From assembly GCA_001874255.1 (NCBI GenBank), contig MPDC01000001.1, positions 124,001 through 188,000 on the forward strand: a stretch of 64,000 nucleotides of DNA. Reading direction: 5' to 3'. Shown here piece after piece: positions 420 through 57,842 of the stretch (its first letter is position 1; every line of letters begins with the position of its first letter). The notes below the pieces were generated by a model. The model saw only the letters and a list, made by a program, of their open reading frames with translations. It was not told the DNA's origin and did no database searches. Source of the DNA: Alphaproteobacteria bacterium MedPE-SWcel (GTDB lineage: Bacteria > Pseudomonadota > Alphaproteobacteria > Rhodobacterales > Rhodobacteraceae). Both the position numbers and the translations under genes were made by a program.

Positions 420-2240
420 ATGCTGGACCAGCCCATTGCACAGATCAAAGGCCTTCGGGTTGAGTTTCAAACCAAGGACGGTCCGGTCGTCGGAGTGGAG
501 AATGTTTCGTTCGAGGTGCAGGCCGGTGAAACATTGTGCATCGTGGGCGAGTCCGGATCAGGTAAATCTGTCTCTTCGCTCTCTTTGATGCGTCTGGTCG
601 AATATGGCGGCGGCGCCATTGCGGGCGGCGAATTGCTGTTTGACGCCGGGGACGGCGCGCCGGTGGATCTCGCCAAAGCCGAGTCGGATCTGATGCGGCA
701 GATTCGCGGAAACCAGATCGGGATGATCTTTCAGGAGCCGATGACGGCGCTCAATCCGGTATTTACCGTGGGGCGCCAGCTGACAGAAGGCCTGCGCATT
801 CACAAAGGATTGACTAAAAAAGAGGCAGCTGCCCGCGCAATCGAGATTTTGCGCGAGGTCCGCATCCCCGAAGCGGAGCGCCGGATGACGCAATATCCGC
901 ATGAGTTGTCCGGCGGCATGCGTCAGCGAGTCGTGATCGCCATGGCAATGGCCTGCGAGCCGCGCCTGCTGATCGCCGACGAGCCGACCACCGCGCTCGA
1001 CGTGACCATCCAGGCCGAGATCCTGGCTCTGATGGACCGGCTGAAGCGGGAAACCGGCACGGCCGTGATGTTCATCACCCATGACATGGCGGTTGTGGCG
1101 CAGATGGCCGACCGGGTGGTCGTGATGTACCGCGGCAACAAGGTCGAAGAGGGCACGGTCCACGAGATCTTCGAGGCGCCAAAGCACGACTATACCAAGG
1201 CGCTGCTGGCGGCGGTGCCGAAGCTGGGCGAAATGCGCGGCAAGGACTACCCCGAGCCGATGAAGCTGTTGGGGGTCGATCAGGGCGAGATCAAGCCGAT
1301 CGTCGGATCGGACAAGGTACTGCTGGATGTCGAACATCTGGTCACCCGCTTTCCGGTCAAGGGCGGGGTGTTGCGCCGCACGGTGGCGCAGGTGCATGCG
1401 GTCGAGGACGTGTCCTTCAAGGTCTACAAGGGCCAGACGCTCAGCCTCGTGGGGGAATCGGGCTGCGGCAAATCCACCTGCGGGCGCTCGATCCTGCGGC
1501 TGGTCGAACCCAACGAAGGGTCGATCCGCTTTGAAGGTCGCGACATCCGCGCCCTCAACCAGCGCGACCTGCACAAGGCGCGGCTGGACATGCAGATGAT
1601 CTTTCAGGATCCCTTTGCCTCACTGAACCCGCAGATGCAGCTGCAGGATCAGGTGGCCGAGCCGATGAAGAACTACGGGATCGCCTCCGGGTCGGAGCTG
1701 CAGGACCGGGTGGCGGCGCTGTTTGACCGGGTGCATCTGCCGCGAAGCTTCATGCGCCGCTTTCCGCATGAGATGTCCGGCGGCCAGCGGCAACGGATCG
1801 CCATTGCCCGGGCGCTGGCCCTGAACCCGAAGCTGATCGTCGCCGACGAGGCGGTTTCGGCGCTGGATGTGTCGGTGCAGGCGCAGGTGCTGAACCTGAT
1901 GATGGAGCTGCAGGCGGATCTGGGCCTGTCGTTCCTGTTCATCAGCCACGATATGGCGGTGGTTGAACGGGTCAGCCATCAGGTCGGGGTGATGTATCTG
2001 GGCCGTCTGGTGGAGATCGGCCCGCGCGCCCGCGTGTTCGAGAACCCGGCCCATGCCTATACGCAGGCCCTGATGAAGGCGGTGCCCATTGCCGACCCGA
2101 AGCAGCGCAAGAGCGAGAAGGATCTGAACTTCAAACCGATCCCGTCGCCGATCCATGATCTGTCCTACCAACCCGAACCCTCGCAATATATCGAGGTCGA
2201 GCCGGGGCATTTCGTGCTGACCACCGACTCGGGCTATTGA
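420..2240 (+). CDS. Peptide-type ABC transporter ATPase, two fused nucleotide-binding domains (DppD-DppF-like)
   Basis: This cytoplasmic ATPase would power import of di/oligopeptides or related opine-type substrates. At 606 aa it is about twice a single DppD or DppF. NBD1 has Walker A GESGSGKS (43-50), signature LSGGMRQRV (about 162) and Walker B with DEPTTALD (about 185). NBD2 has Walker A GESGCGKS (about 345), signature MSGGQRQRI (about 451) and Walker B DEAVSALD (about 474). Each domain is followed by the C-terminal segment typical of oligopeptide-transporter ATPases. ATG 420 is preferred because AGGA lies at 409-412; the in-frame GTG at 390 has no such site. No permease or binding-protein gene is adjacent on this strand. 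The deacetylase gene follows 2 bp after the stop, so the products probably act on imported substrate. Confidence 0.93.
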
Positions 2241-2242
2241 GC

Positions 2243-3412
2243 ATGGCCGCCGAGCGCCTGACGCCGCTGGAGATCATGACCCGGCTGGTGTCCTTTCCGA
2301 CCGTCAGCCGCGACACCAACCTGCCCTTGATCGACTGGGTGGCGGCCTATCTGGCCAGTCACGGCATCACACCCCATATCTGGATCGATCCGGATCAGCC
2401 CGAAAAGGCGGGGCTTTATGCCCATGTGGGCCCCGAGATCGAGGGCGGCGTGCTGCTGTCGGGTCACACGGATGTGGTGCCGGTCGACGGGCAGGACTGG
2501 TCCGGCGATCCCTTTGTGGTCGCGGAACGGGACGGCAAATACTATGGGCGTGGCTGCGCCGACATGAAGGGCTTTGACGCGCTGGCGCTCTGGGCACTGG
2601 TCGAGGGGCACTCTCGCGGGCTGACGCGGCCCCTGCAGCTGGCCTATACCTTTGACGAGGAAATCGGCTGCACCGGCGCGCCGCCTCTGATTGAGGAAAT
2701 GCAAAAACACCTGCCGCGGGCAGAGGCGGTGATCGTCGGCGAACCCTCCTTGCTGAAGGCGGTGACCGGTCACAAGGGGGGCACCGGCTTTGCCACGCGG
2801 GTGGTTGGCCATGAGGTCCACAGCTCGCTGATGCACGAAGGGGTCAGCGCCATCATGGAGGGCGCGCGGCTGATCGACTGGGCGAACCAGCGCAACGCGG
2901 AAAACCGGGCCAAGCCCGCCACGGAGGTGGCTGCGATGTTCACGCCGCCCTGGACCACATGCCATGTGGGGATGATCTCTGGCGGCACGGCGCATAATAT
3001 CACCGCCGCAGAGTGCCGCTTCTGGATGGATTTCCGGGTTGTCCCGGGCGAGACACCGGCGCAATGGGAAGCCGCCTACCGGGCCGAGGTCGACCGGGTG
3101 CAGGCCGAGATGCAGGCGGTGGCTCCGGAGACCCGAATCGAGGTGGAACCGGTCTTCCGCGTGCCGGGACTGGTGCCCGAAACGGACGGCGCGGCAGAAT
3201 CGCTGGTGCGCAGCCTGACGGGCGACAACGGCAGCCATGTTGTCAGCTACGGAACCGAGGCAGGCCAGTATCAGGAGGCGGGCTATTCCGCCGTGATCTG
3301 TGGCCCCGGCGATATCGCGCAGGCGCATCAGGCGGATGAGTTCATCACCGTGGCGCAATTCGAGGCGGGCCATCAGCTGATGCGCGACCTGCTGGCGCGA
3401 CTGGCGGCCTGA
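2243..3412 (+). CDS. argE: Acetylornithine deacetylase/ArgE-type M20 metallopeptidase
   Basis: A zinc amidohydrolase of the M20 family that removes an acyl group from an amino acid; the closest named family is acetylornithine deacetylase. Visible motifs are GHTDVVPVDG (about 74), GRGCADMKGF (about 102), DEEIGC (catalytic Glu, about 138), GEPS (about 166) and a C-terminal AQAHQADEF (about 360) carrying the last metal-ligand-type histidine. Length 389 aa is normal for ArgE. ATG 2243 lies 2 bp after the ABC ATPase stop; an in-frame TTG at 2237 would overlap that stop. Because it is translationally close to a peptide-type transporter and followed by two more M20 genes, a catabolic role on imported acylated amino acids is at least as likely as arginine biosynthesis. 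Confidence 0.85.
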   Translation: MAAERLTPLEIMTRLVSFPTVSRDTNLPLIDWVAAYLASHGITPHIWIDPDQPEKAGLYAHVGPEIEGGVLLSGHTDVVPVDGQDWSGDPFVVAERDGKYYGRGCADMKGFDALALWALVEGHSRGLTRPLQLAYTFDEEIGCTGAPPLIEEMQKHLPRAEAVIVGEPSLLKAVTGHKGGTGFATRVVGHEVHSSLMHEGVSAIMEGARLIDWANQRNAENRAKPATEVAAMFTPPWTTCHVGMISGGTAHNITAAECRFWMDFRVVPGETPAQWEAAYRAEVDRVQAEMQAVAPETRIEVEPVFRVPGLVPETDGAAESLVRSLTGDNGSHVVSYGTEAGQYQEAGYSAVICGPGDIAQAHQADEFITVAQFEAGHQLMRDLLARLAA

Positions 3413-3527
3413 GAACTGGCTGCCTGATCGCAGGGCGGCCTGATCGCGGGGCGGCGCGAAACCGGGCGCCTGAGACCGGGCTGCCTGAGACCGGGCTGTC
3501 TGAGACCGGGCAGCCCGAGATCCGGGG
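3410..3527 (+). repeat. Degenerate tandem repeat starting at the argE stop codon
   Basis: From the TGA at 3410 the sequence runs as GCCTGA-phased units. Two 16-bp units GCCTGATCGC(A/G)GGGCG occupy 3422-3437 and 3438-3453. Four 15-bp units of the form GCCTGAGACCGGGCT occupy 3468-3482, 3483-3497 (identical), 3498-3512 and 3513-3527 (degenerate). The units resemble the last codon plus stop of the preceding gene (GCC TGA). Confidence 0.85.
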
Positions 3528-3655
3528 GACGACTGCCGTGTCACTGATGAAAGGCCGGGCAGTTGTGTCGCTCTGTGGTTCATCTGTGCAGTTGCGCTTG
3601 CGTTCGGCGCTGCCTTGGGTCAGAGATTTCGGTAACACGTTAAGGAAGGTGCCCT

Positions 3656-4822
3656 ATGCCTGTCAGAAATCGCTTTGCCGAGCTTTTGCCCGAAATCACC
3701 GAATGGAGACATGATTTCCACGAACACCCCGAGCTGATGTATGATGTCCACCGCACCGCCGGTCTGGTGGAAGAGCGGCTGAAATCCTTTGGCTGTGACG
3801 AGGTGGTGCCGGGGGTCGGCAAGACCGGCGTCGTGGGCATCATCAAGGGCCAGAGCACCGCGTCGGGCAAGGTGATCGCGCTGCGCGCCGATATGGATGC
3901 GCTGCCGATCCATGAGGAAACCGGGCTGGACTATGCCTCCAAGACGCCGGGCAAGATGCATGCCTGCGGCCATGACGGCCACACCTCGATCCTGCTGGGG
4001 GCGGCGAAATACCTCGCCGAGACGCGCAATTTCAATGGCACCGTGGTGCTCTTGTTCCAGCCCGCCGAAGAAGGCGGAGCCGGCGGCAAGGCGATGGTCG
4101 ACGATGGCGTGATGGACCGCTGGGGCGTGCAGGAGGTCTATGGGCTGCACAATACGCCCGGGCTGCCGGTCGGCCATTTTGCCACCCGGGTCGGCGGGCT
4201 TCTGGCCTCCTCGGATGAGTTCGAGATCGAAGTGACCGGCCAGGGGGGGCATGCGGCGGCGCCCCATGAGGCGATCGACACCACATTGGTGGCGGCGCAG
4301 ATCGTGGTCTCGCTGCACAGTATCGTGTCGCGCAACGTCGACCCGATTCACCGCGTGGTGCTGACCGTGGGGACGTTTGAAACCGACAGCACAGCGTCGA
4401 ATGTGATTGCCCACCGGGCAAAGCTGAAGGGCACCGTGCGCACGCTGGATACCGAAAACCGCAAGCTGGCCGAGGCGCGGGTGCGGCGGGTTGCCGAGGA
4501 CACCGCCTCGGCCTTCGGGGCCACGGCAAAGGTCACTTGGGACCCGGGCTATCCGGTGACCGAGAACACGGCCGAGGAAGTGGCCCATGCGGTCGAGGCC
4601 GCCCGCGCCGTCAGCGACCATGTCGATGGCGACGCCGACCCGATCATGCCCTCGGAGGATTTTTCCTATATGCTGGAAGCGCGTCCCGGCGCCTATATCT
4701 TTCTGGGCAACGGCGACACTGCGGTGTGCCACCATCCGGCCTATCAATTCGATGACAGCGCGATCCCGTTTGGCTGCAGCTGGTTCGTTGAACTGTGCGA
4801 GCGCCGGATGCCAACCGCCTGA
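3656..4822 (+). CDS. M20 amidohydrolase (hippurate hydrolase/IAA-amino acid hydrolase type), copy 1
   Basis: Predicted metal-dependent hydrolase of N-acyl amino acids (subfamily M20D: hippurate and IAA-amino acid hydrolases). The M20D metal motif ACGHDGHT is at about 103, the Glu pair in EEGGAGGK at about 138, HN at about 165, and the C-terminal metal-ligand motif SEDFSYML at about 333. Length 388 aa is normal. The start is supported by AAGGAAGGT (3642-3650). Its closest relative in the window is the next gene: both share MPVKNRFAEL-like starts and identical blocks such as ALPIHEETGLDYASKT, so they arose by tandem duplication. True substrate unknown. Confidence 0.88.
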   Translation: MPVRNRFAELLPEITEWRHDFHEHPELMYDVHRTAGLVEERLKSFGCDEVVPGVGKTGVVGIIKGQSTASGKVIALRADMDALPIHEETGLDYASKTPGKMHACGHDGHTSILLGAAKYLAETRNFNGTVVLLFQPAEEGGAGGKAMVDDGVMDRWGVQEVYGLHNTPGLPVGHFATRVGGLLASSDEFEIEVTGQGGHAAAPHEAIDTTLVAAQIVVSLHSIVSRNVDPIHRVVLTVGTFETDSTASNVIAHRAKLKGTVRTLDTENRKLAEARVRRVAEDTASAFGATAKVTWDPGYPVTENTAEEVAHAVEAARAVSDHVDGDADPIMPSEDFSYMLEARPGAYIFLGNGDTAVCHHPAYQFDDSAIPFGCSWFVELCERRMPTA

Positions 4823-4894
4823 CCTCAGGTTCCCCGCGACCGGATTGCCCGTGCATCCGGTCCCGGATTTTTTTGAACGACAAGGAGAAGACCA

Positions 4895-6058
4895 ATGCCC
4901 GTCAAGAACCGTTTTGCCGAACTGCAGGCAGAAATCACCGAATGGCGACGAGACATTCACGAGAACCCGGAAATCCTGTTTGACACCCATCGCACCAGTG
5001 CGCTGGTGGCGGAAAAGCTGACCGGTTTCGGCTGCGACGAGGTGGTCACGGGCATTGGCCGCACGGGCGTCGTGGCGGTGATCAAGGGCAAGACCGACAC
5101 ATCCGGCAAGGTGATCGGCCTGCGCGCCGATATGGACGCGCTGCCGATCCACGAGGAAACCGGTCTGGACTATGCCTCCAAGACCGCCAATGCGATGCAT
5201 GCCTGCGGCCACGACGGCCATACGGCGATGCTGCTGGGGGCGGCGAAATACCTCTCCGAGACGCGCAATTTCGACGGCACCGTGGTGCTGATCTTCCAAC
5301 CCGCCGAAGAAGGCGGCGGCGGCGGCAAGGAAATGTGCGACGACGGCATGATGGACCGCTGGAACATCCAGGAAGTCTACGGCATGCACAATTGGCCGGG
5401 CCGCCCCGTGGGCAGCTTTGCCATTCGTCCGGGGGCCTTCTTTGCGGCAACAGACCAGTTCGATATCACCTTTGCCGGCCGGGGCGGCCATGCGGCCAAA
5501 CCGCATGAAACCATCGACACCACCGTGATGGCCGCGCAGGCCGTGATGTCCCTGCAGACCATTGCCTCGCGCAATGCGGATCCGGTGCATCAGATCGTTG
5601 TGTCCGTGACCTCCTTCGAGACCTCGTCGAAAGCGTTCAACGTGATTCCGGCGCGGGTTCAGATCAAGGGCACGGTCCGCACCATGTCGCCCGAGATCCG
5701 GGATCTGGCCGAACAGCGGATCAAGGAGATCTGCGCCGGTGTCGCGGCGACCTTTGGGGGCGAGGCCGAGGTCACCTACTACCGCGGCTATCCGGTGATG
5801 GTGAACCACGAAGAACAGACCGATTTCGCGGCCAAGGTAGCGCGGGATGTCTCTGGCGGCTGTGACGAAGCGCCTCTGGTGATGGGCGGCGAGGATTTCG
5901 CCTTCATGCTGGAGGAACGTCCGGGCGCCTATATTCTGGTGGGCAACGGCGACACCGCTGCCGTGCATCACCCGAAGTACAACTTCACCGATGAGGCGAT
6001 CCCTGCCGGGTGCAGCTGGTGGGCGGAAATTGTCGAGCAGCGGATGCCTGCGGCCTGA
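4895..6058 (+). CDS. M20 amidohydrolase (hippurate hydrolase type), copy 2
   Basis: Tandem paralogue of the gene at 3656, 387 aa, with the same layout: ACGHDGHT at about 103, EEGGGGGK at about 138, and GGEDFAFML at about 331. Start ATG 4895 follows a strong AAGGAGAAG (4882-4890). The 72-bp gap to copy 1 has no terminator, so co-transcription is likely; the transcript should end at the hairpin at 6093-6118. The copies differ mainly in the middle (dimerisation) domain and around the C-terminal ligand, where SED becomes GED, which may mean different acyl or amino-acid preference. Retention of both copies after an ABC ATPase gene points to catabolism of imported conjugates. Confidence 0.88.
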   Translation: MPVKNRFAELQAEITEWRRDIHENPEILFDTHRTSALVAEKLTGFGCDEVVTGIGRTGVVAVIKGKTDTSGKVIGLRADMDALPIHEETGLDYASKTANAMHACGHDGHTAMLLGAAKYLSETRNFDGTVVLIFQPAEEGGGGGKEMCDDGMMDRWNIQEVYGMHNWPGRPVGSFAIRPGAFFAATDQFDITFAGRGGHAAKPHETIDTTVMAAQAVMSLQTIASRNADPVHQIVVSVTSFETSSKAFNVIPARVQIKGTVRTMSPEIRDLAEQRIKEICAGVAATFGGEAEVTYYRGYPVMVNHEEQTDFAAKVARDVSGGCDEAPLVMGGEDFAFMLEERPGAYILVGNGDTAAVHHPKYNFTDEAIPAGCSWWAEIVEQRMPAA

Positions 6059-10268: not shown

Positions 10269-10916
10269 ATGACACGATATCTGACTCGACGCGCCTTCAA
10301 ATACCTGTCTTTCGCGGCTGTGGTGGCCGGCGGCGTCTCCGCCTGTAACGGGCTGGGAGGTGTTCATCTCAATTCCCAGGTTCTTCAGGGGCTTGGCACG
10401 GGGCTGCAGCTGGAACCGATGACGCCGGTGTCGCCGGATGCGCCGCCCGCTGTCGAGACTGAAACGCTGGAGGCCGCCGGGTCAAAGCCGTGGTCCTCGC
10501 CGCCTTCGAGCCCGGCTTCGACACAGGATACCACTGCAGTGGCGACCCCGGTGCCGAGCACGGCCGCGTCGGCCCCTGTGGTGGCGGAACTTGCACCGCG
10601 GCCTGTCGCCACACCGCAGGCGGCCGCCGGTGCCAGCCCGACGCCGGTTGTGGCCTCGGCCCCGTCCTTTGTTGGCCAGAAGATGACGGTCGTTGGATTG
10701 GGGGATCCGGGACGGGACGGGTTGTGGATGGAAACACCGCTGGTTTCGGCCCGGCGCAACGCCCGGCTGCGCGCGCCCAATGGCAAGACGGTGGTGGTCA
10801 CGCTGGAGCCCATCGCAGGCGATGCGGGGCAGGGCAGCCGCCTGTCGATCGGCGGCATGCGGGCGCTGGGCTTGCCGCTGACGGAGCTCGTCGAGATCCG
10901 TGTCGGGCCTGTTTGA
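10269..10916 (+). CDS. Lipoprotein with proline/alanine-rich linker and C-terminal RlpA-like barrel (tentative)
   Basis: A 215-aa envelope protein. The N-terminus has twin arginines (TRRAF) and a hydrophobic stretch ending in VSAC, a plausible lipobox with Cys26. Residues about 45-130 are rich in Ala, Pro, Ser and Thr and probably form a flexible linker. The last about 85 residues include ARLRAPNGKTVVVTLEP and a closing LTELVEIRV, which resemble the double-psi beta-barrel of RlpA-type proteins, but the catalytic Asp and His of lytic members are not evident. I do not recognise a specific function. The gene is divergent from moaA and convergent with the AlkD-like gene; its stop codon is the first base triplet of a tandem repeat. 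Confidence 0.65.
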   Translation: MTRYLTRRAFKYLSFAAVVAGGVSACNGLGGVHLNSQVLQGLGTGLQLEPMTPVSPDAPPAVETETLEAAGSKPWSSPPSSPASTQDTTAVATPVPSTAASAPVVAELAPRPVATPQAAAGASPTPVVASAPSFVGQKMTVVGLGDPGRDGLWMETPLVSARRNARLRAPNGKTVVVTLEPIAGDAGQGSRLSIGGMRALGLPLTELVEIRVGPV

Positions 10917-10973
10917 TCCGGCCTGAATTCACCTGAACCAGCCCGATCCGGCCCGATCCGACCTGATCGTGGC
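10914..10973 (+). repeat. 10-bp tandem repeat starting at the stop codon of the lipoprotein gene
   Basis: Six consecutive 10-bp units beginning with the stop TGA: TGATCCGGCC (10914), TGAATTCACC, TGAACCAGCC, CGATCCGGCC, CGATCCGACC and TGATCGTGGC (ending 10973). The period is exact and the units are degenerate. Confidence 0.88.
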
Positions 10974-10999: not shown

Positions 11000-11130
11000 G
11001 TCTGGTCAGTTTTTGGACACAGACCAGCTTAGGTACGGGCCAGTTTGGAACCAGGCCAGTTTGGAACCAGGTCAGTGTCAGGCAGGCCAGATGGGAAACA
11101 GGCCAGTGTCAGACAGGTCAGTTTCGGGCC
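11000..11130 (-). repeat. 15/16-bp degenerate tandem repeat behind the AlkD-like gene
   Basis: Two identical 16-bp units GGCCAGTTTGGAACCA (11038-11053, 11054-11069) are followed by related 15/16-bp units at 11070-11084, 11085-11100, 11101-11115 and 11116-11130; traces extend left to about 11000. Read on the minus strand the array starts about 10 bp after the stop of the gene ending at 11139, in units closing with TGACC or TGGCC. Confidence 0.85.
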
Positions 11131-11138
11131 CGAGCGGA

Positions 11139-11873
11139 TCAGCTGCCCAGGTGTTTTGCGGCTTCCTTGCGGGCAAAGACCTTCATCTGGTCGCCATGGG
11201 TCCCGAGAAAGGCGCGGGTGGCGTCGGGGTCGTGTTTGGACAGATCGCGCAGCCACCAGCCGATGGACTTCTGAATGAACCACGCGCGATCGGGCACATA
11301 GGTTGCAGCCCAGCCCAGAATTCGCGTCCGCGCGCCCCGGTCGGCCGGTTTCGGATTGGCCAGCTTGGCCCAGGGCAGGGTCGACACCAGAGCCGCGCGC
11401 CGGGTCCACAGGTGCTCGGAACTGGTCCAGCCCTCCACCACCTCGAGCCGCGCTGGGTCGGCCAGCAGCCGTTTCGAGATTGCCGTCGCCGCGTGGTCGG
11501 CTATCGCCCAGCTGTCGAAATCGGGCACCCAGCTCTGCAGCAGGTCCCAGACTGCGGCGTCGGGAGAGATCCGGGCCTGTGTCAGCAGCTTGGCGGCAAG
11601 TATGCGGGCCTCAAAGATGTCGCTGGTCCAGAGCTCTGACGCGAGGGTGACGCGGGCGTCCAGATCCAGGTCCTGCCGCAGGTCGCGCGACAGGGTATTG
11701 AGCCGGTCGTTGCCGACGCCCAGAACCGGACGGGTCTGCTTGTGATAGGCGGTCATCTGGGTGGCGCGGTCGGGATCTGTTGCGGCGCGCAGCTGGGCCA
11801 GAACCTCTTCTGTCCGAGGCGACAGCGGGCCGGCGCTTGGGGGCTGGGGGGGGCTCATTCCGGGGGTGCTCAT
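11139..11873 (-). CDS. AlkD-like DNA alkylation repair protein (HEAT-like repeats)
   Basis: Predicted non-base-flipping DNA glycosylase or related DNA-binding protein of the AlkD superfamily, 244 aa, all-helical. Family features are ELWTSDIFEARILAAKLL, the DSWAIADHAA segment carrying the Trp-x3-Asp pair expected at the catalytic position, LWTRRAALVSTLPWAK and the hallmark FIQKSIGWWLRDLSK. It would excise bulky or cationic alkylpurines. The start ATG 11873 overlaps the glmS stop as ATGA, so it is translationally coupled to glmS, an unusual partner. A second start five codons on (MSPPQPPS) is possible. Confidence 0.86.
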   Translation of the reverse strand: MSTPGMSPPQPPSAGPLSPRTEEVLAQLRAATDPDRATQMTAYHKQTRPVLGVGNDRLNTLSRDLRQDLDLDARVTLASELWTSDIFEARILAAKLLTQARISPDAAVWDLLQSWVPDFDSWAIADHAATAISKRLLADPARLEVVEGWTSSEHLWTRRAALVSTLPWAKLANPKPADRGARTRILGWAATYVPDRAWFIQKSIGWWLRDLSKHDPDATRAFLGTHGDQMKVFARKEAAKHLGS

Positions 11874-15962: not shown

Positions 15963-17183
15963 ATGACTTTGCCCATGACAGAGCATTCGACAGAGCATTT
16001 TACCGGCAGTTTCACCCAGCAGGAACCGATCCCGGAGGAGGCCATCGAGGCCGCCGTCGCGGTCCTGCGGCACGGGCGTCTTCACCGCTATAACCTCGTG
16101 GAGGAGGAGGCGGGCGAAGTGGCGCTGCTGGAGCAGGAGTTTGCCGCCATGACGGGGGCGAAATACTGCCTCGCCGTGGCATCCGGGGGCTACGCCATGG
16201 CAACCGCGTTGCGGGCGATTGGGGTCGGGCAGGGCGAGGCGGTGCTGACCAACGCCTTTACGCTGGCGCCGGTGCCGGGCGCGATTGCGTCGGTGGGCGC
16301 GGTGCCGGTCTTTGTCGGCGTTACCGAGGATCTGACCATTGATCTGGAGGATCTCGTGGCCAAGGCGGGGCAGGCCCGGGTTCTGATGCTGAGCCATATG
16401 CGGGGCCACCTGTGCGACATGGACCGGTTGATGGAGATCTGTGCCGAGGCCGGGCTGCGTGTGATCGAAGATTGTGCCCATACGATGGGGGCAAGCTGGA
16501 ACGCTGTGCCATCGGGGCGTCATGGCCTTGTGGGGTGCTATTCCTGCCAGACCTACAAACATGTGAACTCTGGCGAGGGGGGGCTTTTGATAACCGATGA
16601 TGCAGAGGTCGCGGCGCGGGCGATCATGTTGTCGGGGTCCTATATGCTCTATCCGCGTCATCTCGCGGCGCCGGGCCCCGAGGTGTTTGAGCGGGTGAAA
16701 TACGACACGCCCAATATTTCCGGCCGGATGGACAATTTGCGCGCGGCGATCCTGAGACCGCAATTGCGTGATCTGGACCGGCAGGTGCAGCGCTGGAATG
16801 AGCGGTATCGGGTGCTGGAGGACGGTCTGCGGCAGACGCCGGGCTTGACGGTGGTCGAGCGTCCCGCCGCCGAGGGGTTTGTGGGGTCCTCGCTCCAGTT
16901 CCTCTTGCTGGACTGGTCGGCGGCGGCGGTCCAGTCCGTGCTGGCGCGCTGTGCCGCGCGAGGTGTGGAGCTGAAATGGTTCGGCGTGCCGGAACCCGTG
17001 GCCTTTACCTCGCGATACGACAGCTGGCGCTATGCGCCGACACAGCCGCTGCCAAAAAGCGACCGTATCCTGGCTGGTATTGTCGACATGCGCGTACCTT
17101 TGACGTTCAGTCTGGACGATTGCGCGCTGATCGCGCGGATCATTCGCGCCGAAGTCAGCTCTGTCTGGCAAGGCGGCGTCTGA
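15963..17183 (+). CDS. DegT/DnrJ/EryC1/StrS-family PLP aminotransferase
   Basis: A PLP enzyme of the sugar-aminotransferase (AHBA synthase) family, 406 aa from ATG 15963. PLP anchors are visible: VIEDCAHTMGA (Asp to the pyridine N) and SCQTYKHVNSGEGG with the Schiff-base Lys. Family members usually transfer the Glu or Gln amino group to keto-sugars or cyclitols. A second in-frame ATG at 15975 is an equally good start. The longer open frame to 15867 lacks a ribosome binding site and its extra residues do not match the family. No sugar-nucleotide genes are next to it, so the substrate is unknown. The following 400 bp are non-coding. Confidence 0.85.
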   Translation: MTLPMTEHSTEHFTGSFTQQEPIPEEAIEAAVAVLRHGRLHRYNLVEEEAGEVALLEQEFAAMTGAKYCLAVASGGYAMATALRAIGVGQGEAVLTNAFTLAPVPGAIASVGAVPVFVGVTEDLTIDLEDLVAKAGQARVLMLSHMRGHLCDMDRLMEICAEAGLRVIEDCAHTMGASWNAVPSGRHGLVGCYSCQTYKHVNSGEGGLLITDDAEVAARAIMLSGSYMLYPRHLAAPGPEVFERVKYDTPNISGRMDNLRAAILRPQLRDLDRQVQRWNERYRVLEDGLRQTPGLTVVERPAAEGFVGSSLQFLLLDWSAAAVQSVLARCAARGVELKWFGVPEPVAFTSRYDSWRYAPTQPLPKSDRILAGIVDMRVPLTFSLDDCALIARIIRAEVSSVWQGGV

Positions 17184-17589: not shown

Positions 17590-18753
17590 ATGTTCAACGC
17601 AAGCATGACATTCGATCTGGGTGAAGACGTAAACGCGTTGCGCGATATGGTGCATCGCTGGGCGCAGGATCGTGTCAAGCCGATGGCGCAGGAGATTGAC
17701 CAGACCAATGAATTCCCCGCCGCGCTCTGGCAGGAGATGGGCGAGCTGGGGCTTTTGGGCATCACGGTGGATGAAGACTTTGGCGGTGCGGGCATGAGCT
17801 ATCTCGCCCATACCGTTGCGGTGGAGGAAATCGCGCGGGCCTCGGCTTCGGTGGCGCTGTCCTATGGGGCCCACTCGAACCTTTGTGTCAACCAGATCAA
17901 ACTGAACGGCACGACCGAGCAGAAGGCTCGGTATCTGCCGGGCCTGATTTCTGGCGCGCATGTGGGCGCCTTGGCAATGTCGGAGGCCGGCGCGGGGTCT
18001 GACGTGGTGTCAATGTCGCTGCGGGCTGAAAAGCGCAATGACCGGTATGTATTGAACGGCAGCAAATACTGGATCACCAACGGTCCGGATGCCGACACTC
18101 TGGTGGTTTATGCCAAGACCGACCCGGAGGCCGGATCCAAGGGCATGACGGCTTTCCTGATCGAGAAGACGTTCAAGGGGTTCTCGACCTCGCCCCATTT
18201 CGACAAGCTGGGGATGCGGGGGTCGAACACGGCCGAGCTGGTGTTCGAGGATGTCGAGGTTCCCTTTGAAAACGTGCTGGGCGAGGAAGGCAAGGGCGTG
18301 CGCGTCCTGATGTCGGGTCTGGATTACGAGCGGGTGGTTCTGGCGGGGATCGGCACGGGCATCATGGCCTCCTGCATGGATGAGATGATGCCCTACATGG
18401 CGGAGCGCAAGCAATTCGGCCAGCCGATCGGGAGCTTTCAGCTGATGCAGGGCAAGATCGCGGATATGTACACGGCGATGAATTCGGCCCGCGCCTATGT
18501 CTACGAGGTCGCGAAGGCCTGTGACAAGGGAACCGTGACCCGACAGGATGCGGCGGCCTGCTGTCTCTATGCATCCGAAGTGGCGATGACTCAGGCGCAT
18601 CAGGCGGTGCAGGCCTTTGGCGGCGCGGGGTATCTGAGCGACAATCCGGTTGGCCGCATTTTCCGCGATGCCAAGTTGATGGAGATCGGGGCGGGGACGT
18701 CGGAAATCCGGCGCATGCTGATCGGTCGCGAATTGATGACTCATATGGTCTGA
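17590..18753 (+). CDS. ivd: Isovaleryl-CoA dehydrogenase
   Basis: FAD enzyme that oxidises isovaleryl-CoA to 3-methylcrotonyl-CoA and passes electrons to ETF; first dedicated step of leucine degradation. 387 aa with acyl-CoA dehydrogenase signatures [14 protein letters not shown] and [22 protein letters not shown]. The Glu in [11 protein letters not shown] (about 247) sits where isovaleryl-CoA dehydrogenases carry their catalytic base, rather than at the C-terminal position used by other members. ATG 17590 follows GGAGGAGA (17575-17582). It heads the operon ivd, acyl-CoA synthetase, mccB, mccA, hmgL, liuC behind the operator at 17503-17516. Confidence 0.95.
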
Positions 18754-18830: not shown

Positions 18831-18878
18831 GACCGTTGGGCTGACCGGTGGGCTGGCCGGTGGTCTGACTGGCGCCTG
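18831..18878 (+). repeat. 12-bp degenerate tandem repeat between ivd and the acyl-CoA synthetase gene
   Basis: Four units: GACCGTTGGGCT (18831), GACCGGTGGGCT (18843), GGCCGGTGGTCT (18855), GACTGGCGCCTG (18867-18878). The preceding 20 bp (GACGGACAGGCACGCG) look like a more degraded extension. The array lies in the 180-bp gap inside the operon, about 78 bp after the ivd stop. Confidence 0.75.
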
Positions 18879-54448: not shown

Positions 54449-55567
54449 ATGGCAGAGCCGGTCTTGCTCAAGGAGCAGCTCTTCAATCTGACAAAGCTCC
54501 GCTATCTGGCGGGGCTTTTCGCGGCGGCTGACCCGGCCTTCGCCGCGCAGGACTTTGAGACGGCGGTGATGTCCCGGCTGCCTGCGCTGGAATTGAAGGC
54601 GCGGATCCACTGGATCGCCGAGCAAATGGCGCAGCATGTTCCGGGGTCTCTGGCTGACGTCGCCCCGCTGATCCTGCGGGCGCTGCCGCCGCCGCTGGAC
54701 CCGGCGCTCTGCGATGATGACTTTGGAGATTTCATCTTTGCCCCCTTGGGGGAATGGGTGACGGCGCTGACACGTGACGACAGCGACCTGCCTTTGGCGC
54801 TGGATCTGTTGCAGGAGCTCACCCAGCGATTTTCAATGGAATATGCCATTCGCCCGCTTTTGAAACGCTGGCCGGATGCGGTGCTGGCAGAGATGGCCGA
54901 ATGGGCGCGTCACGACAGCTACCACGTCCGCAGATTGGCGAGCGAGGGCAGCAGGCCACGTCTGCCGTGGGGGATGGGCGTGGATCTGCCGCTGCGGGCG
55001 ACCTTGCCGATCCTCAATCAGCTGCACGCGGATCCGGCCCGTTTCGTCACCCGTTCGGTGGCCAACCATCTGAACGATATCGCCAAGAAAGAGCCCGAGA
55101 TCGTCATTGACTGCCTGACCGATTGGCAAGGGCGCGCAGTGCAGGCGCAGAAAGAGCTGGACTGGATGACGTCGCATGCGCTGCGGGGGCTGGTCAAGGC
55201 AGGCGATCCCCGTGCCCTGCGGCTGCTGGGCTATGATCCCGATCTGGCGCTGAGCGCCCGGCTGACGCTCCCGCAGACGGTGCGTATCGGTGGCACGCTG
55301 GATCTCGGCTGCCATCTGACGGGCCGCTCCGGGGCGCGGGTGCTGGTGGATTATGCCGTCACCTTTCAGCGGGCGGGCGGCAAGTCCGCGACCAGGGTTT
55401 TCAAGTGGAAGACCGCAGTGCTTGGCGGCGAGGGGTTGACGCTGAAGAAGGCGCATCCCTTGCGGGCACAGGCGTCGACATTCACCCTGTTGCCCGGTGC
55501 CCATGTGGTGACGCTGCTGGTCAATGGCCGCCCCCGCGCCGAAGCGGTGGTGGAGTTTCTGACCTGA
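54449..55567 (+). CDS. alkC: AlkC-type DNA alkylation repair glycosylase
   Basis: 372 aa, HEAT-like repeats followed by an Ig-like C-terminal domain (about 265-372, beginning LSARLTLPQTVRIGGTLDL). The hallmark HVRRLASEGSRPRLPWG of AlkC and RFVTRSVANHLNDIAKKEP are clear. AlkC removes 3-methyladenine and 3-methylcytosine without flipping the base. A distinct AlkD-like protein is encoded at 11139, so the strain has both branches. It follows an SDR gene by 6 bp. Its stop codon begins a 16-bp tandem repeat. Confidence 0.9.
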   Translation: MAEPVLLKEQLFNLTKLRYLAGLFAAADPAFAAQDFETAVMSRLPALELKARIHWIAEQMAQHVPGSLADVAPLILRALPPPLDPALCDDDFGDFIFAPLGEWVTALTRDDSDLPLALDLLQELTQRFSMEYAIRPLLKRWPDAVLAEMAEWARHDSYHVRRLASEGSRPRLPWGMGVDLPLRATLPILNQLHADPARFVTRSVANHLNDIAKKEPEIVIDCLTDWQGRAVQAQKELDWMTSHALRGLVKAGDPRALRLLGYDPDLALSARLTLPQTVRIGGTLDLGCHLTGRSGARVLVDYAVTFQRAGGKSATRVFKWKTAVLGGEGLTLKKAHPLRAQASTFTLLPGAHVVTLLVNGRPRAEAVVEFLT

Positions 55568-55612
55568 CCTTGCGGGAGCCTCACCTTACGGGGGCTTGAC
55601 CGTGCGGGGCCC
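55565..55612 (+). repeat. 16-bp tandem repeat starting at the alkC stop codon
   Basis: Three units beginning with the TGA stop: TGACCTTGCGGGAGCC (55565), TCACCTTACGGGGGCT (55581) and TGACCGTGCGGGGCCC (55597-55612). Confidence 0.85.
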
Positions 55613-57782: not shown

Positions 57783-57842
57783 TTCTCGTGCCCAGCCTTC
57801 CCCTGCCCAGCCTTCTCTCGCCCAGCCTTCTCCCGCCGCGCC
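57783..57842 (-). repeat. 15-bp tandem repeat
   Basis: Four units of TTCTCxxGCCCAGCC type at 57783, 57798, 57813 and 57828-57842 (third position variants TTCTCGT, TTCCCCT, TTCTCTC, TTCTCCC; last unit GCCGCGCC). No stop codon of a gene adjoins it. Confidence 0.85.

Follow-up and report, generated by a model that had tools for sequence, protein, structure and literature searches.

Clade-restricted excess of short tandem arrays in permissive DNA of MedPE-SWcel and its sister Phaeobacter sp. B1627

The intergenic DNA of Alphaproteobacteria bacterium MedPE-SWcel and its sister, Phaeobacter sp. B1627, is rich in short degenerate tandem arrays, with 75 in 131.5 kb versus 6 in 180.6 kb for ten other members of the genus (17.2-fold excess, binomial P ~1e-21), and in our sample of 12 genomes the excess is confined to these two. 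This phylogenetic restriction was the unexpected part of the analysis, beyond the reach of reading one window. The original prediction, made from such a window, had described recurrent arrays anchored at stop codons; the arrays and their recurrence above chance were borne out, and stop anchoring as a general rule was not. We consider it probable that tandem duplication proceeds at a raised rate throughout the clade, with selection deciding where its products persist.

Results

Arrays in the window and the genes beside them

The window is the whole stretch of DNA that was analyzed, 64,000 nucleotides of MedPE-SWcel (G000:C1:124001-188000), whose genome comprises 4.08 Mb in 54 contigs. Arrays had been claimed at 3410, 10914, 11139 (minus strand) and 55565 of the window, and they are present at those places, strong at 3410-3526 and 11038-11124 and weak and degenerate at 10914 and 55565. 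The first (3410..3527, plus strand) consists of degenerate 15-16-bp units, several of them bounded by GCC-TGA, and its first unit opens with the stop codon TGA (3410-3412) of an M20 peptidase gene (PF01546, PF07687; 2237..3412, plus strand). By sequence inspection it extends to ~3526, and Tandem Repeats Finder reported it as 3418-3455 (16 bp, score 62) and 3461-3526 (15 bp, score 95). Three M20-family peptidase genes follow one another on the plus strand here (2237-6058). Judged by the M20 protein, the closest named relatives of MedPE-SWcel are Phaeobacter sp. B1627 (93%), Epibacterium sp. Ofav1-8 (88%) and Tritonibacter horizontis (87%). The same gene end bears weak TGA-bounded 10-bp units of its own in the sister species and 13-bp units in T. 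scottomollicae, both below the score cut-off.

The weak 10-bp array (10914..10973, plus strand) starts at TGA 10914-10916, the stop of the ORF at 10269-10916. Tandem Repeats Finder detected it at 10941-10968 (10 bp, score 42), and it falls below the cut-off in our ungapped score, where the best match at 10916 is the adjoining 16-bp array. Between convergent genes, a 15-16-bp array on the minus strand (11038..11124) lies ~15 nt behind the stop 11139-11141, with a gene of the DNA alkylation repair family (PF08713; 11139..11873, minus strand) upstream of it on its strand; Tandem Repeats Finder gave 11038-11107 (16 bp, score 77) and 11052-11124 (31 bp, score 104). The degenerate 16-bp array at 55563..55609 (plus strand) includes the stop TGA 55565-55567 (Tandem Repeats Finder: 16 bp, score 59, 77% matches), with an ungapped score at 55567 of 10, less than the cut-off of 14; at the matching gene end the sister species carries a different array with a 24-bp period. 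Two further plus-strand arrays are a 12-bp array (18831..18869), which begins ~80 nt past the end of a gene at 18753 and leaves that gene's stop untouched, and a 15-bp array (GCCCAGCCTTCTCCC) reported by Tandem Repeats Finder at 57790..57837.

Abundance above chance and variety of units

Tandem self-similarity was scored without gaps (match +1, mismatch -2, period 6-39 bp) around genes called with a simple codon-usage caller trained on MedPE-SWcel DNA, which is not curated and may perform worse in other genera. The MedPE-SWcel sample amounted to about a quarter of the genome. In 864 kb of it, 55 of 464 3' flanks scored at least 14, while none of 250 base-shuffled flanks did; where two genes converge, one array may enter this count twice, once per side. 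Across all sampled intergenic gaps of at least 30 nt, 66 chunks with strong tandem self-similarity were found in 114.6 kb, and none in shuffles that keep dinucleotides.

The units were profiled in 130 arrays of the two clade genomes (score at least 12, scan range 6-59 bp, one duplicate row dropped). Their periods have a median of 15 bp and cluster at 12-16 bp, with 75% in 10-18 bp, and only 55 of the 130 arrays have a self-identity of at least 93%. The units stand head to tail within ~10-60 bp, as is the rule for bacterial minisatellites (VNTR). The GC content of the arrays was 0.640, versus 0.594 in MedPE-SWcel intergenic DNA. Two intergenic loci of MedPE-SWcel stood out: a 28-bp unit repeated 4.5 times with 95% identity (L123, ~16588-16715), which exceeds the usual period, and 4.7 perfect copies of a 9-bp unit (L116, 16533), ~160-200 nt behind a gene within a 1.6-kb intergenic gap.

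The repetition itself, and nothing further, would speak for the spread of a single mobile or MITE-like repeat element, or of a few such elements, an origin that we regard as highly improbable. Units and periods differ among the 45 best-scoring 3' flanks, and an exact search of 341 loci with the unit of the 3410 array found it at 1, the locus of that array, in agreement with the original prediction that units differing between loci are not copies of one mobile element. A dispersed repeat of the REP, MITE or TAACTGA type was likewise rejected as a class for the arrays, as neither the 45 best-scoring flanks nor the one unit searched gave a sequence common to many loci.

Distribution over permissive DNA and reading frames

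Arrays cover 2.8-7.7% of the sequence lying no more than 100 nt from stops, 0.3-1.2% up to 100 nt upstream of starts and 1.7-4.2% beyond. Coding DNA and the ~100 nt in front of starts are avoided, and arrays return farther upstream. Coverage reaches 7-8% at 40-80 nt behind stops, versus 1.9-4.5% at 100-200 nt, and this residual peak is not foreseen by the permissive model. By gene orientation, array density in MedPE-SWcel is 1.27/kb in convergent, 0.52/kb in codirectional and 0.31/kb in divergent regions.

Tandem repeats also occur inside MedPE-SWcel genes: 723 kb of coding sequence contained 15 that scored at least 16. The period is divisible by 3 in all 15, with 12- or 15-bp units in 11, whereas 35 of 78 intergenic periods are divisible by 3. 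In MedPE-SWcel, the duplication process thus acts inside genes too and is filtered by frame. The ten other genus members yielded 3 coding repeats in 980 kb (periods 27, 36 and 42), and the sister 1 in 188 kb, with a period divisible by 3 (1/1), a number not above that of some relatives.

The stop codon as a supposed anchor

An early test appeared to favor anchoring, as the stop-codon context recurred downstream at 7 of 233 gene ends, versus ~0.5 with permuted contexts. This signal was removed by a control in which 8-mers elsewhere in the 3' flank recurred about equally often. Along the 3' flanks of 415 gene ends of the clade, 8-mer recurrence is flat: 2.1% for stop-spanning 8-mers, then 1.8% (+1 to +15), 2.2% (+16 to +30) and 1.7% (+31 to +42). 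For comparison, coding DNA gives 0.3% and the DNA upstream of starts 0.2-0.6%. Stop-spanning arrays numbered 15 of 73, and random placement in permissive DNA would give 13.2 ± 2.8; the left edges of codirectional arrays fell within -6..+2 in 3 of 47. Arrays anchored at stop codons as a rule, as originally proposed, are therefore contradicted by neutral placement and a flat flank. Against a background of permissive DNA, arrays are not enriched at stops, an outcome that the original prediction had itself named as refuting it. In the ten relatives (431 gene ends), 8-mer recurrence was 0.36-0.48% along the 3' flank and slightly higher, 9 of 1293 (0.70%), for 8-mers containing the whole stop, a small signal on the side of stop anchoring.

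The original prediction had also suggested that duplication begins at the gene end or stop codon itself, for instance at a replication- or transcription-linked break site. Such a hot spot would account for the several clear arrays that span stops, for the convergent regions being the densest, for the residual peak 40-80 nt behind stops and for the slight whole-stop excess in the relatives. It is nevertheless very unlikely in our judgement, even more so than selected 3' elements (below), given that the clade's stop-spanning arrays are at neutral expectation, that recurrence along its 3' flanks is flat, that array coverage is similar more than 100 nt upstream of starts, and that coding repeats are kept in frame.

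Restriction to the clade

The contrast with the genus rests on relative samples of 54-121 kb of DNA each for nine of the ten genomes and of 400 kb for the tenth, G009, which alone gave 2 arrays in 61 kb of intergenic DNA. In the wider family, 78 of 80 loci (those longer than 8 kb) held 10 arrays in 159 kb, a set that takes in the sister and six other genus members.

The same excess could arise at an ordinary rate of duplication if the clade purged neutral or slightly harmful duplications less well, through weaker selection or a smaller population. In keeping with this, the excess is seen solely as standing sequence, and the arrays occupy DNA where selection is expected to be weakest. On the other side, the intergenic DNA of the clade is not generally swollen: gaps of at least 30 nt make up ~13% of the MedPE-SWcel sample and ~12% of the sister's, within the ~10-33% of the ten relatives. 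Intergenic gap events are not raised either, with 265 in 21,159 aligned positions between MedPE-SWcel and its sister (12.3% substitution, ~0.10 per substitution) versus 128 in 4,705 between G009 and G005 (18.5% substitution, ~0.15 per substitution). A 17-fold rise limited to tandem duplications is hard to obtain by relaxed purging alone, and we regard retention as unlikely, though it is the most serious of the rivals to a raised rate.

Species-specific arrays and their births

Among 68 orthologous 3' flanks compared between MedPE-SWcel and its sister, with one genome per species, 8 carried arrays only in MedPE-SWcel, 9 only in the sister, and none in both. The two species differ by 0.285 at four-fold sites, so that arrays older than the split would mostly be too diverged for detection; zero sharing is what is expected of arrays born after the split, and thus does not by itself prove unusual turnover.

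For 5 of the 17 species-specific arrays, the unit could be traced in the flank of the other species (P ≤ 0.05; ~1 expected by chance), 2 of the five surpassing all 200 shuffles, and for the other 12 no source unit was recognized there at this threshold. The clearest birth lies in the sister (L242), where a 15-bp unit including TGA stands twice without mismatch and MedPE-SWcel has one diverged copy. In another sister case (L245), a TGA-containing 8-bp unit is repeated 4.6 times without mismatch, while MedPE-SWcel has TAA and no repeat; the unit search gave P=0.18, and the case rests on reading the sequence. Together with L241, these sister-species cases uphold the original argument for neutrality of the gene end, where a further stop does not alter the protein. 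Taken as a whole, the earlier interpretation held for varied units, for local duplication as the origin of the arrays and for the neutrality of the position, and failed for the stop or gene end as a break site.

In alignments of the two species, protein indels of 3-12 aa were tandem-like in only 2 of 8, and 3 of 107 aligned intergenic gaps of 7-40 nt scored as tandem-like, by a global alignment and gap classifier that are weak on arrays.

A role in termination or transcript stability had been raised as well. The arrays might be selected 3' elements, such as Rho-dependent or bidirectional terminators or stability elements that accept any repeated sequence, and they are indeed enriched behind genes, most of all between convergent ones. 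Folding shows a weak bias, with z averaging -0.99 over 24 codirectional arrays and lying below -2 in 25% of them. We find such a role improbable, as not one array is common to the sister species across the 68 gene ends and no excess of C over G was detected (C minus G 0.009 in arrays versus 0.015 in array-free flanks, P=0.75). It also fits poorly with the few arrays in relatives and with the repeats inside MedPE-SWcel coding sequence.

Replication and repair genes

Matches above the cut-off were present in 12 of 12 genomes for polA, mutS, recJ, ligA, IMS-type polymerases, mutL, RNase HII and xseA, and in 0 of 12 for family B polymerase; no gene loss limited to the clade was found among these nine replication and repair families in the 12 genomes.

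PolA carries nine changes common to MedPE-SWcel and its sister at columns invariant in the ten genus relatives. Eight of the nine fall in the 5'-nuclease part, versus 13 of 81 single-genome changes, or 13 of 57 without G011, whose polymerase part contributes 22 of the 81. The stem branch is 0.067 long for the nuclease part and 0.026 for the rest. Beyond the nine families, the analysis covered 13 genes of one region. PolA had the highest stem-to-background ratio (1.76; next 0.82) when set beside the genes of a single region that gave over 150 aligned columns, 12 genes in all. Stem changes at invariant columns were 4 of 622 in mutS, 2 of 387 in ligA, 4 of 484 in mutL (8 genomes only) and 0 of 115 in RNase HII, with 3 in recJ. 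Two of the PolA changes, A102S and E257A, affect residues from which just one of 39 other sequences departs; the remaining six nuclease-part positions vary in the family. The motifs that we take to be catalytic look intact in the clade. PolA is a lead and not a demonstrated cause, because other genera also carry changes at conserved PolA positions (0-9 each), several of them as many or more.

Two other features of repair genes were recorded. The MutL linker of MedPE-SWcel (L292) has an extra ~20 aa with a loose AY..HP repeat, absent from seven other aligned genomes, so that a mismatch-repair protein has itself been hit by an insertion. Because xseA sits in unusually long open frames in the two clade genomes (974 and 915 aa), a fusion was considered; it was dismissed, as XseA itself aligns normally and the extra part of the frame lies upstream, where the opposite strand carries a long, presumably purD-like open frame. 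This upstream stretch (L330 and L331) has more than 380 stop-free codons in both clade members and could mimic a fusion in automatic output.

Discussion

We infer that a raised rate, and not selection, drives the excess of arrays in this clade, and that behind it would lie a heritable mutator for tandem duplications or something equivalent. In the ancestor common to both species, a replication or repair protein may have undergone a heritable change that caused short duplications, mostly with 10-18-bp units, to arise genome-wide far faster than in other genus members. The route could be replication slippage or template switching, possibly at the ends of Okazaki fragments. Duplications that disrupt reading frames or promoters would be lost. 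Survivors would lie in the 3' flanks of genes, well upstream of starts and, kept in frame, within proteins, and their copies would later diverge through mutation. The stop codon would then be the left border of a harmless zone. Since a unit containing the stop is harmless, arrays may start at or just before it, and the stop thus came to resemble an anchor. More generally, a mutational process limited by selection can mimic a gene-end mechanism targeted to a sequence.

Several observations count against a raised rate. They are the single coding repeat of the sister in 188 kb, the residue 40-80 nt behind stops, the 12 of 17 arrays without a recognized source, the scarcity of tandem-like indels and gaps, the search for a causal gene, in which eight replication and repair families had a match in 12 of 12 genomes, and the small samples of nine of the ten relatives.

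As to the protein concerned, flap-endonuclease mutants of yeast (rad27) have flap-processing defects, and the fast change in the PolA 5'-nuclease on the clade stem would fit defects of this kind, as a lead by analogy. We tentatively raise the possibility that MedPE-SWcel and Phaeobacter sp. B1627 form a heritable tandem-duplication mutator clade with a rad27-like outcome, in which altered Okazaki-fragment or flap processing would produce 12-16-bp duplications and PolA would be the candidate. If the rate is truly raised, the array-rich sister strain and array-poor relatives such as T. mobilis would make a natural pair for learning why bacteria normally have so few short tandem duplications, and for observing how minisatellites and in-frame repeats of proteins are born.

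None of the titles found in a literature search describes tandem repeats of the MedPE-SWcel/B1627 clade, which does not prove their absence from print. Bacterial minisatellites, or VNTR loci, are head-to-tail repeats of ~10-60-bp units, known as a handful of typing loci. The arrays described here share the head-to-tail units and are largely noncoding and lineage-specific; they differ in forming a clade-wide burst with a mode of 12-16 bp and ~17-fold the density of close relatives. The direct repeats of Beggiatoaceae resemble them in being abundant, short and intergenic, but they are one heptamer, TAACTGA, throughout, which mostly points toward downstream starts and has been proposed to serve as a regulator site (PMC4679880). 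With no common sequence and depletion near starts, our arrays are of a different kind. For T. mobilis, published work reports 98 tandem repeats in the 3.12-Mb genome of AK171 by Tandem Repeats Finder, with settings not matched to the present scan (PMC11225332), and indels at short repeats (PMC10090143).

The closest published pattern that we found is that of the tandem repeats of Borg elements, which originate independently, evolve fast and occur both between and within ORFs, where their units are divisible by three (PMC9879509). They are described there as rare in the host, with perfect, A-rich units, on archaeal extrachromosomal elements (PMC9879509), whereas many units here are degenerate and not A-rich and lie on bacterial genome contigs. 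Like the Borg repeats (PMC9879509), our arrays arose independently and are rare in close reference genomes, their speed of evolution being only bounded since zero sharing is expected, and the units inside ORFs are divisible by three in both systems (15/15 in MedPE-SWcel, 1/1 in the sister).
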